Positions 53,781 to 63,281 of a stretch of 64,000 nt of DNA are shown piece after piece. The notes beneath the pieces were generated by a model. That model was given only the letters and a program-made list of their open reading frames with translations, was not told the origin of the DNA and made no database searches. Every line of letters starts with the position of its first letter. The first letter of the stretch is position 1. The position numbers and the translations under genes are program-made. Source of the stretch: Actinomycetota bacterium (GTDB taxonomy: Bacteria; Actinomycetota; Nitriliruptoria; Nitriliruptorales; JAHWKO01); the NCBI GenBank assembly GCA_019347675.1, contig JAHWKW010000001.1, forward strand, positions 62,001-126,000, read 5' to 3'.

Positions 53781-54551
53781 TCAGATGGTGGGCTGTCCTG
53801 CCGTGAGCAGGCGCGGTGCGAGGTCTGCGAGCGCTTGGACGACCTCGGCCCCGTCGGCGTGCTCGATCAGCGGGACGCCGGCCCGGTCGGCGTCGACCAC
53901 CGCATCGCTCCACGGCAGCTGGGCGACGAGCTCGAAGCCGTGGCGCGCACAGAACTCCGCGATCGCCTCGGCGTCCGCGGGGGAGCGCACCTTGTTGGCC
54001 ACCACCCCCAACCGCGCGATCGGCAGCTCCTGGGCGAGCGCCGCCATGCGCCGCACCGTCTCCAGGGACCGGAAGTAGGGCTCGGCGACGAGCAGCAGCA
54101 CGTCGACGTGGCGGGCGGTGCCGCGGCTCAGGTGCTCCGGGGAGGCCTCCATGTCCACGATCGTGGTGATCCGCGGGCTGGCGCCGAGGTCACCGAGCAC
54201 GGCGCTGACGGTGGCGTGCGCGGAGCACAGGCAGCCCTCGTTGGCGTGGGCGGGCATGCCCATCAACGTCAGACGGACCCCGTCGGGTGCCCTGACCGTG
54301 TGATGGTCGAGGACGTCATCGACCGGTTCGACGAGAGCGGGGCCCTGCAACCGGCGTGACACGATCGAGGACGGCAGGATCGCGGGCTCGCCCTCACTCT
54401 CGCGGTCCACGCCCAGCGCCGTGGCCAGGTTCGGGTTGCTGTCGGCGTCGATCGCGACCACCGGCGCCCCGGAGCGTGCCAGCAGGCGGGCCAGGGTGGC
54501 CGAGATGGTGGTCTTGCCCGCCCCGCCCTTCCCGGCGACGGCGATCCTCAT
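53781..54551 (-). CDS. CooC/MinD-type ATPase (metal-insertion accessory)
   Basis: 256 residues. Deviant Walker A GKGGAGKTTI, DADSNPNLATALG, and a CxC motif in EGCLCSAHATV, as in CooC, the nickel-inserting ATPase of CO dehydrogenase. No CODH is present; the neighbour is a [NiFe] hydrogenase, so a role in nickel or cofactor handling for it is the best inference. ATG 54551 overlaps the PadR stop by ATGA, coupling the two. Confidence 0.87.
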   Translation of the reverse strand: MRIAVAGKGGAGKTTISATLARLLARSGAPVVAIDADSNPNLATALGVDRESEGEPAILPSSIVSRRLQGPALVEPVDDVLDHHTVRAPDGVRLTLMGMPAHANEGCLCSAHATVSAVLGDLGASPRITTIVDMEASPEHLSRGTARHVDVLLLVAEPYFRSLETVRRMAALAQELPIARLGVVANKVRSPADAEAIAEFCARHGFELVAQLPWSDAVVDADRAGVPLIEHADGAEVVQALADLAPRLLTAGQPTI

Positions 54552-55582: not shown

Positions 55583-56989
55583 ATGGCAGTTCCACGGGAA
55601 GCCAAACAGGTCCCCAGCAGGACGCCGGCTCAGCAGCTCCTCGACTACGCCGGACCGGCCAGCCGGTTCAGGCTCGATGAGGACTCCCACGAGATCGGGG
55701 ACTTCGGGAACCCGACGCGGTCCTTCATGGAGTTTATGCTCGAGCCCGCCGCCAAGGCCAGTACCGGCAAGCGGCTGGGACCGCTGGAGAAGGTCCACGC
55801 GTTCTGGTTCGCCGGGATGAGCTGTGACGGGTGCACGGTGACGGTCAGCGGCGCCCACGCACCGTCGGTCGAGAGCCTGCTGCTCGGGGCGCACCCGGGC
55901 ATCCCCCGGGTCGCCCTGCACCACCCGGTCGTCCAGATCGAGTCGGGCCCCAACTACTTCTACGCCCACGAGCTGGCGGTCAAGGGGGAGCTCGACGCCC
56001 CGTACGTGATCATCCTCGAGGGCTCGATCAGCGACGAGGTCCGTGCCTACGAGACAGGTGGGTACTGGTCGGGTGCCGGCGAGGAGCCCTGGGGTCGCGG
56101 TGGCGAGCACCGCACCGTGTCGATCGACGAGTGGATCGCCCGGATGGCGCCCGGTGCGGCGGCGTCGATCGCGATCGGGACCTGCGCCACCTGGGGCGGC
56201 ATCCCCTCGGCGGAGGGCAACCCCACCGGGGCGATGAGCCTGATGGACTTCCTCGGGAAGGACTACCGCAGCGCCTACGGCGTCCCGGTCGTCAACATCC
56301 CCGGCTGCGCCCCGATCGGTGACAACTTCACCGAGACGGTCGCGGCCGTCCTGTACTTCCTGCAGGGCTACGGTCCTCTCCCCGAGTTCGACGAGATCGG
56401 TCGGCCGGCGTGGCTGTTCGGCGAGACCGTGCACCGCCACTGCGTCCGCGGCGCGTACTACGAGGAGGGCACCTACGCCAAGCACTTCGGCGACCCCGAG
56501 TGCCTGGTCGAGATCGGGTGCTGGGGGCCGGTGGTGAACTGCAACATCACCTCCCGCGGCGCCATCAACGGCTACGGCGGCTGCATGAACTCCGGTGGGG
56601 CGTGCATCGGGTGCACCATGCCCGGCTTCCCCGACAAGTTCACCCCCTTCTACAAGAAGCCGCCGGGGACGTTGGTGTCATCGAGCATCTCGCGGCTGGT
56701 CGGCAGCTTCGTCCGCCCGATGCGCAAGTACACCAACAACCACCTCAACCGTGAGACGCGGTGGGACGAGCACGGCGCGGTGCCCAGCGGCTGGGCCCGC
56801 GCGCAGTCCGAGCCAGGGTTCTTCAACGACCTCGGCCACAAGTTCTACGACCGCTTGCGCCGCGGCACCGACACCGGTCGGCGGCGTGGCGACGAGTGGG
56901 GCAAGGGCGGCTCCGACACCGTCTGGACCGAGGTGCGTGACCCGTCGCGGGAGGAGGACCTCTCGCTGCGGCCCGGCAGCCGGCGCTGA
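55583..56989 (+). CDS. hhyS: Group 1h [NiFe] hydrogenase small subunit
   Basis: 468 residues without a Tat signal, typical of the actinobacterial group 1h enzyme that oxidises atmospheric H2. The proximal cluster motif is GMSCDGCTV, with Asp where other groups have a third Cys, matching the unusual Asp-ligated cluster reported for the Ralstonia actinobacterial-type enzyme. Further cluster ligands appear in GTCATWGG, NIPGCAPIG, and the C-terminal HRHCVRGAYYEEGTYAKH to GGACIGCTMPGFPDKF stretch. It carries electrons from the large subunit. ATG 55583; large subunit follows. Confidence 0.93.
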   Translation: MAVPREAKQVPSRTPAQQLLDYAGPASRFRLDEDSHEIGDFGNPTRSFMEFMLEPAAKASTGKRLGPLEKVHAFWFAGMSCDGCTVTVSGAHAPSVESLLLGAHPGIPRVALHHPVVQIESGPNYFYAHELAVKGELDAPYVIILEGSISDEVRAYETGGYWSGAGEEPWGRGGEHRTVSIDEWIARMAPGAAASIAIGTCATWGGIPSAEGNPTGAMSLMDFLGKDYRSAYGVPVVNIPGCAPIGDNFTETVAAVLYFLQGYGPLPEFDEIGRPAWLFGETVHRHCVRGAYYEEGTYAKHFGDPECLVEIGCWGPVVNCNITSRGAINGYGGCMNSGGACIGCTMPGFPDKFTPFYKKPPGTLVSSSISRLVGSFVRPMRKYTNNHLNRETRWDEHGAVPSGWARAQSEPGFFNDLGHKFYDRLRRGTDTGRRRGDEWGKGGSDTVWTEVRDPSREEDLSLRPGSRR

Positions 56990-57031: not shown

Positions 57032-58936
57032 ATGTGCTTCAAGAACCTCCCCATCGAGTTCGACGCCGCGGGGAACGCGTCCTGGAAGGGCGGGATCCCC
57101 GATCCCCAGTCGGTGACGATCGCGCGGCCTGAGCTGTCACTATCCGAGGACGAGCGCCAGGAGCAGATCCGCCGCTTGGTGGCCCGCAACGGGCACATCA
57201 AGGACCTCAACATGGACCCGATCACGCGTGTGGCGGGCGCGCTGGCGATCCACGTCGTGGCTGACCTCGACGAGGGTGTGTACCTCGATTCGCATTCGCA
57301 GGCGACCCTGTTCCGCGGCTACGAGGTGATCCTGATGGGCCGCGACCCCCGGGACGCGATCTTCGTGTCGTCGCGGGCGTGCGGCGTGTGCGGAGGCGTG
57401 CACGCGCACGCCGCGGCCTACGCGATCGAGATGGCGATGGGTCTGACCCCGCCACCGCTGGGCACGGTCGTGCGCAACCTCGGCGAGACTGCCGAGATGG
57501 GCTACGACAACCCGCTGCACCTGTACCTGCTGGCCGGTCCGGACTACTCGGAGTCCGTCGTCAAGCAGACCAACCCCGAACTGTGGCCCAAGGCCGAGAA
57601 GTGGAAGTGCCCGGGTGCGAACACCCACGGGTTCAAGACGATGGCCGACCTGATGCATGCCCTGAACCCGCTGACGGGTGCCCTGTACCGGGAGGGTCTG
57701 GACTTCACGCGGCACTTCCGTGAGTCGTTCGCGCTGCTGCACGGCAAGTACCCGCACCCGCAGACGATCGTGCCCGGCGGCGTGTCGACCACGCTCACGC
57801 TCCAGACGCTGAACGAGTACCACTCGCGGCTGGGGAAGGGCTACGACTACGCGCGGCGGATGATCGCCGTGTGGGACGACATCTACGCCTTCTTCATGGA
57901 GGCCGACGAGCGCAACATGTGGGTCGGGTACCGTCCGACCAACCACATCGAGCCGGGCTTCTGGGACGACCCCTACGCGTACGACGCCACCTACCAGAAC
58001 TGCAACGAGTGGGGGTTGCGTCGCTGGTCGACCCCGGGTGTCGTCGTCGACGGCGAGCTGAAGACCAACCGCCTGACCGACATCAACATCGGCTGGGAGG
58101 AGTTCGTCGACCACGCGTACTACGACCCGTCCACCACCAGGCGCTACTCGACCGACCCGCTGGGCAACCCGATCACCGAGCACCACCCGTGGAACAAGCG
58201 GACCCTGCCCCGCCCGGGCGCGAAGGACTTCCGCGGGAAGTACACCTGGTCGACGGCGCCCCGCTGGGACCGCACCGTCGTGGAGACCGGGGCGTACTCG
58301 CGCCTGCTGATGACCGCTCTGTCGCAGCAGCTGCCCGAGAACGACTTCATCGAGGCGACCGGGCACTCGCTGCGGATGGTCATCCCCAAGGCCGAGACCC
58401 ACGAGACCGAGGTCGAGTGGCACGTCCCGGAGGTGTGGAACGCGCTGGAGCGCAACCGCAGCCGCGCGTACCACTTCCTGTTCTCGCAGCTCGTGGCGAT
58501 GAACAACCTGCTGCTGGCGTACCGACTGCTCAAGTCGGGCGAGAGGCGCGTCGCTGCCGTCAAGCCAGACGAGCTCGACGACTACATCCCCCGGGAGGAG
58601 ACCCGCAGCGTCGGCTTCTGGGGAGCGGGTCGTGGCTGGCTGCTGCACCACCTGGTCATGGACCAGGGCAAGATCGTCAACTACCAGATCACGACGCCGT
58701 CGACGATCAACGCCTCGCCGCGGGACGCCTTCGACCAGCCGGGTCCCTACGAGGAGGCGGTCATCAACACGCCGATCCTCGAGGACATCTCGGACCCGTC
58801 GAAGTTCACCTCGATCGACATGATGCGTTCGGTCCGCAGCTTCGACCCGTGCATGCCGTGCACCACGCACGTGTACACGGGTCAGGGGACCGTGACCCGC
58901 GAGGTGAACACCTGCGCTTGCGGCGCGGACCTGTAG
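57032..58936 (+). CDS. hhyL: Group 1h [NiFe] hydrogenase large subunit
   Basis: 634 residues. Nickel-binding motifs L1 RACGVCGGVHAHA near 116 and L2 FDPCMPCTTH near 605, four cysteines in all; the ~25 residues after L2 (to CACGADL) are presumably removed by the maturation protease. The start MCFKNLPIEFD and ITRVAGALAIHV also fit group 1h. It splits H2 to supply electrons for respiration during starvation. ATG 57032 after AAGGAGAG; 42 bases from the small subunit gene. The hyp genes are not in the window. Confidence 0.94.
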   Translation: MCFKNLPIEFDAAGNASWKGGIPDPQSVTIARPELSLSEDERQEQIRRLVARNGHIKDLNMDPITRVAGALAIHVVADLDEGVYLDSHSQATLFRGYEVILMGRDPRDAIFVSSRACGVCGGVHAHAAAYAIEMAMGLTPPPLGTVVRNLGETAEMGYDNPLHLYLLAGPDYSESVVKQTNPELWPKAEKWKCPGANTHGFKTMADLMHALNPLTGALYREGLDFTRHFRESFALLHGKYPHPQTIVPGGVSTTLTLQTLNEYHSRLGKGYDYARRMIAVWDDIYAFFMEADERNMWVGYRPTNHIEPGFWDDPYAYDATYQNCNEWGLRRWSTPGVVVDGELKTNRLTDINIGWEEFVDHAYYDPSTTRRYSTDPLGNPITEHHPWNKRTLPRPGAKDFRGKYTWSTAPRWDRTVVETGAYSRLLMTALSQQLPENDFIEATGHSLRMVIPKAETHETEVEWHVPEVWNALERNRSRAYHFLFSQLVAMNNLLLAYRLLKSGERRVAAVKPDELDDYIPREETRSVGFWGAGRGWLLHHLVMDQGKIVNYQITTPSTINASPRDAFDQPGPYEEAVINTPILEDISDPSKFTSIDMMRSVRSFDPCMPCTTHVYTGQGTVTREVNTCACGADL

Positions 58937-61340: not shown

Positions 61341-61367
61341 TGGCCCCGCAGCATAGCTGCGGGGCCA
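61341..61367. terminator. Perfect 12-bp hairpin
   Basis: TGGCCCCGCAGC, loop ATA, GCTGCGGGGCCA: 12-bp perfect stem. On the minus strand it follows the DUF1059 gene by 68 bases and precedes the protease gene, so it probably ends the small-membrane-protein operon. No long T-run. Confidence 0.7.
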
Positions 61368-61434
61368 CACGCTGGCCTGTTCGCCTTTGCACGGGGGCCC
61401 GCACGGGGCCCGCTGCCGACACTCACGCGGCGGT

Positions 61435-61611
61435 CTAGCGCTCCTGGGCGACGCGACGGACGTAGTTGCTCAGCGTCTTGCTCATGGTGTGGATGTCGTG
61501 CTTTTCCCTCAGGTGCTGCTCGACCTCACGCTGAAGCTGCTCCTCCGTCCCGGCACTGAAGCGCCCGCTGCAGTCGGCACCGGCGTCCCTTCAGCGGAAC
61601 TCGTACGCCAT
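61435..61611 (-). CDS. DUF1059 protein with in-frame UGA at the first conserved cysteine
   Basis: 59 codons: ATG 61611 preceded by AAGGGAG, then MAYEFR, UGA (61591-61593), RDAGADCSGRFSAGTEEQ, continuing QREVEQHLREKH to VAQER and TAG. The DUF1059 family has a Cys-x6-Cys motif at this place (CRDxGxDC); here UGA replaces the first Cys while everything after it fits the family and has normal codon bias. Reading through as selenocysteine would give a 58-residue product; a TGC-to-TGA mutation or a sequencing error are the alternatives. A hairpin covers the UGA. The gene is the last of a six-gene minus-strand cluster. Confidence 0.72.
61554..61596 (-). promoter_or_regulatory. Hairpin spanning the UGA codon (SECIS-like candidate)
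   Basis: In the mRNA, CG-CUGAAG (61596-61589) pairs with CUUCAG-UG (61561-61554), eight pairs including one G-U, with the UGA inside the lower stem. Above a GGA bulge, CGCC pairs with GGCG, then UGC with GCA around the loop CGACU, whose second base is G. This resembles the layout of bacterial SECIS elements, but short GC-rich stems arise easily by chance. Confidence 0.35.
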
Positions 61612-61712
61612 GCTGGCTCCCTTCTGTGGTGTCTCCGGTCTCGCCCGAGGTTGCGGCGGGCGACGTGCGGGTCAGGTGTGGGGCGCCCCGTCCGGTTCGA
61701 GTGGCGGGGGCG

Positions 61713-62027
61713 CTACCGCCGGGCTGAGCTGGCCTTCTTGGCGGCCTTCTTGCGGCGCCGACGCGGCGGCTCCGGCGGTTCCTCTTGCGCCTTCCGCTCC
61801 AGGAGGTTCTCGAGGCTCCTGCGTGCGCCCTCGATCTCGCGGACCATGTCGCTCATGACCGGCTGCAACGGCTCGGTCTGGTTCACGATCGCGCGCAGTC
61901 CCGCGATGATCGTGCCGAGGGTGTTGACGACGTGCCTGAGGTGCATCGCCACGCGCGTCAGATAGATCGCCAAGGCGGCAACCGTGATGGCGGTCGCGAT
62001 GAGGGTTCCGATGGCGGCGGCTGGCAT
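61713..62027 (-). CDS. Small membrane-anchored coiled-coil protein 5
   Basis: 104 residues: one N-terminal membrane helix (AIGTLIATAITVAALAIYL), a cytoplasmic helix (LRHVVNTLGTIIAGLRAIVNQ, VREIEGARRSLENLLERK) and a Lys/Arg-rich tail (PRRRRKKAAKKASSARR) that could bind acidic lipid, RNA or DNA. The helix resembles that of the protein encoded at 62326-62586 (LR-x-I/V, G-x-RA-V/I, Q-x3-I/L-x-P). GAGGGGAA serves as RBS. Fifth of five such genes; DUF948-like in character, function unknown. Confidence 0.7.
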   Translation of the reverse strand: MPAAAIGTLIATAITVAALAIYLTRVAMHLRHVVNTLGTIIAGLRAIVNQTEPLQPVMSDMVREIEGARRSLENLLERKAQEEPPEPPRRRRKKAAKKASSARR

Positions 62028-62042
62028 GTCGTATTCCCCTCT

Positions 62043-62291
62043 CTACAGCACGTGGTCGAGAGCGGCGGCGTACCGCTGCACGCCGTTGCTCGTTTCCCTC
62101 ACCAGACTCCGCGTGTCGAGGAGTCCTTCCACATCGTCGAGCGCCGCGAGAACGTTCTGCGCGTGGTCCAAGGCGTCGTCGGCGTAGATCCGGATCTCCT
62201 CGATGGGACTCAGAAGGGCGCTCAGCAGCATCAGCACAGCCGGGATCACCACGAACAGGAAGATCAGATTCGCGATCCACCACAGCACCAT
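62043..62291 (-). CDS. Small membrane-anchored coiled-coil protein 4
   Basis: 82 residues: an N-terminal hydrophobic helix (MVLWWIANLIFLFVVIPAVLM) followed by a charged helix (YADDALDHAQNVLAALDDVEGLL, VQRYAAALDHVL). The ALDDVEGLL stretch resembles AIDALDDGY in the first protein of the cluster. A strong RBS (AGGAGGTAAC) precedes ATG 62291. Short gaps to both neighbours. Confidence 0.72.
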   Translation of the reverse strand: MVLWWIANLIFLFVVIPAVLMLLSALLSPIEEIRIYADDALDHAQNVLAALDDVEGLLDTRSLVRETSNGVQRYAAALDHVL

Positions 62292-62325: not shown

Positions 62326-62586
62326 TCAGCGCGCCAGCTGTTCCGCCCTCTGCGCGACGCGGGGCAGGGTTCCGTTGATGTCGCGCAGGAGCCGGTTGAC
62401 CTCCGTGACCCCCGGTCCGATCGCGCTGACCTGCGTCTCGACGGCGCGCACGCCGAACGCCACCCGAGCGAGGTTGGCGGCGATCGAGCGCAACTGGCGC
62501 GTCACCATCGTCACCATGATCGCCAGGACCAGCACGAGCAGCACGATCTCGATGACCGTCAGCGTGACCAGCAGCACGAAACTCAC
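62326..62586 (-). CDS. Small membrane-anchored coiled-coil protein 3
   Basis: 86 residues. GTG 62586 after GAGGGGGGAC; the longer frame to 62757 is antisense-like. A membrane helix (FVLLVTLTVIEIVLLVLVLAIMVTMV) leads into LRSIAANLARVAFGVRAVETQ and VTEVNRLLRDINGTLPRVAQ, similar to DUF948-type stress proteins and to the fifth protein of this cluster. Function unknown. Confidence 0.68.
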   Translation of the reverse strand: MSFVLLVTLTVIEIVLLVLVLAIMVTMVTRQLRSIAANLARVAFGVRAVETQVSAIGPGVTEVNRLLRDINGTLPRVAQRAEQLAR

Positions 62587-62620: not shown

Positions 62621-62902
62621 TCACAGCCTGCTATCCAGAAGTTGTTCGTGAGCTTGCATCTCTTCGCGGAGCGATTGCAGCGTGTGGGACAGCTCGCGCA
62701 ACTGCCATGTGGTGGCCGTGTTCGACGCGAAGCGCGTCGCGGTCTCCCACACCTCACGGACCCCTCGGTCGATCTGCTGCACGATGCGCAGCAGGAGGGT
62801 CAGCAGCGCGATCACGACCAGGAGGACGACCGCACCGATCCCCAGTGAGATTGTCCAAAACGTCTCGTATTCAGAAACCAGCGCCAGCAGATTCGGATCC
62901 AT
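62621..62902 (-). CDS. Small membrane-anchored coiled-coil protein 2
   Basis: 93 residues. Short outside N-terminus (MDPNLLALVSEYETFW), membrane helix (SLGIGAVVLLVVIALLTLLL) and a cytoplasmic helix (QIDRGVREVWETATRFASNTA, LRELSHTLQSLREEMQAHEQ). RBS GGGGGGATG upstream of ATG 62902, which is three bases after the stop of the first gene of the cluster. Confidence 0.72.
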   Translation of the reverse strand: MDPNLLALVSEYETFWTISLGIGAVVLLVVIALLTLLLRIVQQIDRGVREVWETATRFASNTATTWQLRELSHTLQSLREEMQAHEQLLDSRL

Positions 62903-62905
62903 GTC

Positions 62906-63196
62906 TCATCCCCCCAGAACTTGGCGAACGCTCTGCGCACTTTGCAGGATGTGCGTGGCGTGCTCGTCGACCGTCGAGACATCCCACATGCCCAGCGTGT
63001 TGCGGTACCCATCGTCGAGCGCGTCGATCGCCACTCGGGCCTGCTGGTTGATCGTCTGCGCCGAGTTCAGGATCGACGCCACGACGACGACGACCACCAA
63101 GACGATTGCGAACCCGATCGCCAGCCCCACATACCAGCCGCCGAGAGGGGGGCCTGCCGGGGCGTCCTGCTGCAACAGCGTCAGTATCAATGACAT
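62906..63196 (-). CDS. Small membrane-anchored coiled-coil protein 1
   Basis: 96 residues. A possible outside segment (LLQQDAPAGPPLGG), a membrane helix (WYVGLAIGFAIVLVVVVVVASIL) and a helix with AQTINQQARVAIDALDDGYRN and ATHILQSAQSVRQVL. ATG 63196 follows GGAGGCACCG; the frame upstream is non-coding. First gene of the cluster, behind the palindromic sites at 63251-63281. Confidence 0.72.
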   Translation of the reverse strand: MSLILTLLQQDAPAGPPLGGWYVGLAIGFAIVLVVVVVVASILNSAQTINQQARVAIDALDDGYRNTLGMWDVSTVDEHATHILQSAQSVRQVLGG

Positions 63197-63250
63197 CGGT
63201 GCCTCCCAAGCGACGACCGAAGCGCTCATGCGACCCGGCCCCACACCGGT

Positions 63251-63281
63251 ATGTGTCGCACACATGTAACCCTAGCATGTG
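63251..63281. promoter_or_regulatory. Overlapping palindromes in the divergent promoter
   Basis: ATGTGT-CGC-ACACAT (63251-63265) overlaps CACATG...CATGTG (63261-63281), 55-85 bases upstream of the first small-membrane-protein gene and about 170 bases from the divergent DUF2510 gene. Looks like a dimeric repressor site. The rest of the 255-base gap shows no gene. Confidence 0.5.

Follow-up and report, generated by a model that had tools for sequence, protein, structure and literature searches.

Does the UGA at codon 7 of a short DUF1059-like reading frame end the gene, or is it read as selenocysteine (Sec)? The question is raised by a locus on the minus strand of the window, by which we mean the whole 64,000-nucleotide stretch of DNA that was analysed. 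Read through the UGA, the frame gives a 58-residue product, MAYEFRURDAGADCSGRFSAGTEEQLQREVEQHLREKHDIHTMSKTLSNYVRRVAQER, that matches Pfam PF06348 (DUF1059) with E=3.9e-13 and 49.9 bits against a gathering cut-off of 21.1. On genomic evidence, and without protein data, we consider it very likely that this gene encodes a selenoprotein of the DUF1059 family. The features of the gene are as follows.

61435..61611, minus strand: DUF1059 gene, very likely Sec-containing, 58 aa, ATG to TAG; a paralogue and 24 homologues have the same UGA
61617..61624, minus strand: Shine-Dalgarno-like GAAGGGAG, 5' of the ATG
61609-61611, minus strand: ATG
61591..61593, minus strand: in-frame UGA, read as Sec7, aligning with the first Cys of Cys forms
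61570..61572, minus strand: codon of Cys14, invariant in 35 aligned sequences
61513..61515, minus strand: codon of His33, nearly invariant in the same alignment (Cys in one homologue)
61498..61500, minus strand: codon of His38, invariant in the same alignment
61435-61437, minus strand: TAG, true end of the gene
61341..61368, minus strand: GC-rich hairpin 3' of the gene, GGCCCCGCAGC...GCTGCGGGGCC, without a T run and hence without a terminator score

A first-pass annotation, made from sequence alone, had described a ribosome-binding site, a start and a read-through DUF1059 frame with its UGA at the first Cys of the family's Cys-x6-Cys motif; all of this held, with an ATG start, GAAGGGAG and the PF06348 match. 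Stopped at the UGA, the apparent product has only 6 residues, so gene callers drop Sec-DUF1059 genes.

DUF1059 is matched exactly twice in the source genome (G000; 3.49 Mb in 76 contigs, 97% complete), each time with one internal TGA, at the same codon. Its high GC, its gene set and the parallel in the literature hint tentatively at an actinobacterial lineage. The second gene, on contig C39 (L001:1495-1671), reads through as MAYEFRURDAGAHCSGHFKAATDDELQRKVEEHLRDKHEIHTISQTLMSYVRKVAQDR and is 71% identical to the window protein. A near-identical GGCCCCGCAGC...GCTGCGGGGCC hairpin also lies 3' of this paralogue (L001, about 1769-1795), despite the separate contigs. The Sec machinery is complete in this genome, comprising selA, which adjoins selB on contig C16, selC (tRNA-Sec; 77.2 bits against an Rfam cut-off of 47, called by ARAGORN as tRNA-SeC with anticodon UCA) and two full-length selD genes (C43:1054-1977 and C37:15553-16485). 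Both selD genes carry an in-frame UGA in the motif GAGUACK, a known Sec position of SelD, which serves as a positive control. As the first-pass annotation had noted, no sel gene was found in the 64-kb window; the sel genes are on contigs C10, C16, C37 and C43. An absence of selB and selC would have refuted the selenoprotein reading, and this outcome did not occur.

Of the 33 window genes that were read, 26 end in TGA. Apart from the DUF1059 and selD sites, UGA thus serves as the normal stop, and the code is therefore not reassigned; genome-wide reassignment of UGA was rejected as a candidate explanation.

Relatives were searched with PF06348 (66 genomes from within the class, 396 from within the phylum) and the DNA then read, and 24 genomes of a second class were searched with an alignment of the DUF1059 family. 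Relatives do not uniformly have TGC at the site: TGA stands at the first conserved Cys codon of 26 DUF1059 genes in 14 related genomes, the window genome included (two each in G000, G001, G150, G238 and G296; one each in G002, G014, G167, G170, G267 and G306; three each in G160 and G218; four in G179). Internal stops in the DUF1059 matches of the class, the phylum and the second class were all TGA and never TAA or TAG. Nearly all 26 Sec genes have a purine-rich, RBS-like sequence and an ATG or GTG start, and they avoid the recoded stop at their true ends, which are TAG in 17, TAA in 8 and TGA in 1 (TAG or TAA in 25 of 26), whereas TGA predominates among the window genes. Codons 3' of the UGA are under purifying selection, with pN/pS of 0.04-0.45 in 15 pairs.

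These data address the possibility that the TGA marks a pseudogene or a sequencing error, the main alternative named in the first-pass annotation. In its favour, TGC differs from TGA by one base. Against it stand two paralogues and 24 homologues with TGA at the exact codon, none with TAA or TAG, and purifying selection that persists 3' of the TGA. The sharing of the UGA by two paralogues and 24 further genes rules out a local read error, and we regard this alternative as all but excluded. The reading of the gene as a candidate selenoprotein is thus strongly supported.

The DUF1059 genes of the relatives are varied. One genus has up to four Sec-DUF1059 paralogues per genome. Sec and Cys DUF1059 genes stand in tandem, Sec first, in G179 (contig C25, L101:1112-1539) and in G160 (contig C70, L104:989-1402), and offer a natural pair for comparing Sec with Cys chemistry. 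A distinct subfamily, MPPEVGUADVGADTC, has seven residues between Sec and Cys (L109-L113, from G160, G179, G218 and G296). Short DUF1059-like proteins that begin with CxCG or CG lack the U/C-x6-C pattern (L118-L125, L127, L136 and L137).

At the first conserved position, the DUF1059 family switches from Sec to Cys or back. A tree of 51 proteins, only partly resolved because the proteins are short, needs no fewer than 6 changes between the Sec and Cys labels, and strongly supported branches force 2 of these. The same two small membrane-protein genes precede a Sec form in G170 and a Cys form (MAYEFSCVDAGAAC...) in G258.

The Sec machinery of the relatives is less informative. Of the 14 Sec genomes, 13 gave a SelA match, but so did many genomes whose DUF1059 genes are all Cys forms, and co-occurrence with SelA alone is therefore weak evidence. 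tRNA-Sec scored above the cut-off in 9 of these 14, and no match at the cut-off used was obtained in G002, G014, G238, G296 and G306, all of them draft genomes; in G014 (78% complete), SelA was also not found.

Wider searches did not extend the set. A Sec-motif pattern scan of 84,980 species genomes gave 20 matches, none of them DUF1059 and about the number expected by chance. No stop was seen inside any DUF1059 match in 400 genomes from the phylum of a Caldilineaceae MAG, or in 396 genomes from the phylum of an Acidobacteria MAG, with the proviso for both that inspection of matches starting after the first Cys was incomplete. Plasmid records encode no relative. DUF1059/PF06348 is also absent from a catalogue of May 2026 that covers 119 families of prokaryotic selenoproteins (PMC13188914), NCBIfam 20.0 has no model matching Sec-DUF1059, and DUF1059 and selenoprotein never appeared together in the open-access literature searched, which does not exclude unpublished or subscription-only reports. 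We conclude that DUF1059 is a previously uncatalogued selenoprotein family.

Bacterial selenoprotein genes are expected to have a SECIS hairpin just after the UGA, and one had been proposed here.

61557..61593, minus strand: candidate SECIS hairpin with the UGA in its lower stem (UGAAG...CUUCA), -18.4 kcal/mol, unproven

That proposal held only in part: the hairpin exists, but it is neither above the shuffle background nor conserved. It was not more stable than synonymous-codon shuffles (z=-0.52; P 0.12 in a second scan), and the mean z from such shuffles was -0.26 for the 26 Sec genes versus 0.00 for 9 Cys genes. With 17 gap-free sequences as input, RNAalifold recovered 2 pairs only and no conserved consensus structure, a scan constrained much like the published bSECIS model failed to tell Sec genes from Cys genes, and synonymous change near and after the UGA was not reduced, giving no sign of extra constraint. 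Many bacterial SECIS elements are unlike each other, according to a 2026 review (PMC13188914), and the missing consensus is therefore a gap rather than a refutation.

The same gap leaves room for a second alternative, in which an unusual tRNA decodes the UGA as Cys or another residue and the protein contains no selenium. The occurrence of Cys forms throughout the DUF1059 family and the lack of a demonstrated SECIS speak for it. Against it, the genome has the full set of selA, selB, tRNA-Sec and selD, and a UGA stands at the usual Sec site of SelD itself, making non-Sec decoding very unlikely in our judgement. Under the preferred reading, the UGA at codon 7 would be decoded as selenocysteine through the host SelA, SelB, SelC and SelD, a step that rests on genomics and not on protein.

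What the Sec does is less certain. In 35 aligned proteins, Sec/Cys7, Gly11, Cys14 and His38 are invariant and His33 is nearly so, with one His-to-Cys replacement. An AlphaFold2 model (pLDDT 80.5, pTM 0.58) places strands at 3-6 and 17-20 and helices at 23-37 and 45-57, so ordered strand-strand-helix, and gives the four conserved residues an arrangement similar to that of a beta-beta-alpha C2H2 zinc finger. A Foldseek search of the PDB with the DUF1059 model returned nothing significant, so a zinc-finger fold is unproven, and a PDB sequence search found no significant relative of the protein. We lean, by a modest margin, towards Sec7, Cys14, His33 and His38 forming a C2H2-zinc-finger-like metal site in which selenium is one ligand; in the absence of a significant fold match, this is an inference.

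The rival to this step, in which the protein remains a selenoprotein, is that the Sec is redox-active, forming with Cys14 a selenenylsulfide switch for sensing or reducing, either with a metal that is released on oxidation or without any metal. Redox proteins make up most of the catalogued selenoproteins (PMC13188914), position 7 (Sec or Cys) and Cys14 are both invariant, and Cys and Sec interchange on the tree, all of which favour it. Its weaknesses are that a U-x6-C or U-x7-C spacing is unusual for a redox motif and that a plain redox pair does not need the two co-conserved His residues, one of which is replaced by Cys in a homologue. We consider it less likely than not, and behind the metal-ligand reading. 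The redox-cysteine interpretation of the first-pass annotation is accordingly not the sole option, as the Sec belongs to a conserved U/C, C, H, H set that resembles a metal site.

The genes around the DUF1059 gene suggest a setting in which such a site might act.

53781..54551, minus strand: P-loop ATPase of the CbiA/ParA families, with homologues 68-71% identical beside DUF1059 in G001 and G002
55700..56989, plus strand: [NiFe]-hydrogenase small subunit (PF14720, PF01058), true start not fixed
57032..58936, plus strand: [NiFe]-hydrogenase large subunit (PF00374), no in-frame TGA
61713..62027, minus strand: small membrane protein, 104 aa, directly 5' of the DUF1059 gene, with a homologue in the same place in G001, G002, G014, G170 and G258
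62043..62291, minus strand: small membrane protein, 82 aa, order kept in relatives
62326..62586, minus strand: small membrane protein, about 86 aa, GTG start; the homologous stretch starts near residue 87 of a longer ORF
62621..62902, minus strand: small membrane protein, 93 aa, compared by tblastn with the relatives' regions
62906..63265, minus strand: small membrane protein, up to 119 aa, compared in the same way

A minus-strand run of five small membrane-protein genes, from 63265 to 61713, thus leads into the DUF1059 gene. The ATPase is one that we take to be CooC-like. The best solved relative of the hydrogenase large subunit is 5aa5 (E=1.3e-138), the group 1h enzyme of Cupriavidus necator (PMC9561532). 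The window's large subunit is open throughout without a UGA and ends ...DPCMPCTTH....

Window proteins were compared by tblastn with the regions of other Sec-DUF1059 genes and of the G258 Cys form. Membrane-protein homologues lie directly 5' of DUF1059 in G001, G002 and G014, and two of them do so in G170 and G258; hydrogenase subunits were found near DUF1059 in G001, G002 and G167; and the P-loop ATPase was found in G001, G002, G170 and G167, with a fragment at a contig end in G258. In whole or in part, the hydrogenase and small-membrane-protein neighbourhood is therefore common to G001, G002, G014, G170, G258 and G167. The G170 and G258 genes are flanked by proteins that, by eye and from their starts, we take to be HypC-like and HypD-like. 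The regions of G001 (L150) and G002 (L151) have two different large-subunit matches near Sec-DUF1059, about 51% and 40-43% identical to that of the window. Most Sec paralogues of other families have no hydrogenase homologues nearby, and beside some of them are genes, again named by eye, that we take to be RtcB-like or ClpB-like; with these paralogues elsewhere, a role purely in hydrogenases cannot apply to every member of the DUF1059 family.

From the conserved neighbourhood we infer, with slightly less than even confidence, that in this lineage the window DUF1059 serves the neighbouring hydrogenase cluster. During assembly of the hydrogenase it probably handles metal or senses redox state, which is likewise an inference and leaves unresolved whether the step served is nickel delivery, assembly or redox sensing. 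In the mechanism that we propose, Sec7, Cys14, His33 and His38 would hold a metal with selenium among the ligands; the protein would be an assembly factor that handles metal or senses redox state, together with the P-loop ATPase and the small membrane proteins; and its client would be the adjoining [NiFe]-hydrogenase cluster, of high-affinity type. A bolder reading is possible, though less likely than not, namely that the Sec is a metal ligand and not catalytic, and that in one lineage the protein helps to assemble, or brings metal to, a hydrogenase scavenging atmospheric H2, which would tie selenium supply to atmospheric hydrogen oxidation. If the proposals are true, a selenoprotein family with up to four Sec paralogues per genome is gained, nature offers a test of selenium ligation in a zinc-finger-like site, and selenium is connected to a hydrogenase cluster of a kind linked to trace-gas oxidation.

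Several known systems can be compared with the protein. The window protein matches DUF1059 (PF06348) over its full length, with the same Cys and His positions, but has Sec for the first Cys. Like known bacterial selenoproteins, it combines an in-frame UGA at a Cys position with full Sec machinery; unlike them, its Sec sits in a U-x6/7-C plus H-x4-H set, and no SECIS fitting a common model has been shown. The conserved residues and modelled secondary structure of DUF1059 are compatible with a C2H2 zinc finger, with its two Cys-type and two His ligands in beta-beta-alpha order, but without a significant fold match the resemblance is only suggestive. The group 1m [NiFe]-hydrogenase cluster typically includes a CooC-type ATPase, a HybD peptidase, BirA, DUF1059 and two small membrane proteins, its gene list also naming TPR and 5AA5-like subunits (PMC9561532). 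The window likewise has a P-loop ATPase, DUF1059, small membrane proteins and a 5aa5-like large subunit, but no BirA or TPR was identified near the window gene, HybD was unconfirmed by Pfam, and membership of group 1m is without a phylogeny; selenium is not mentioned for the group 1m cluster in that study. Finally, [NiFeSe]-hydrogenases also link selenium with a [NiFe]-hydrogenase, but in those enzymes the catalytic subunit carries the Sec, whereas in the window it would reside in a separate small protein, beside a large subunit that has no UGA.
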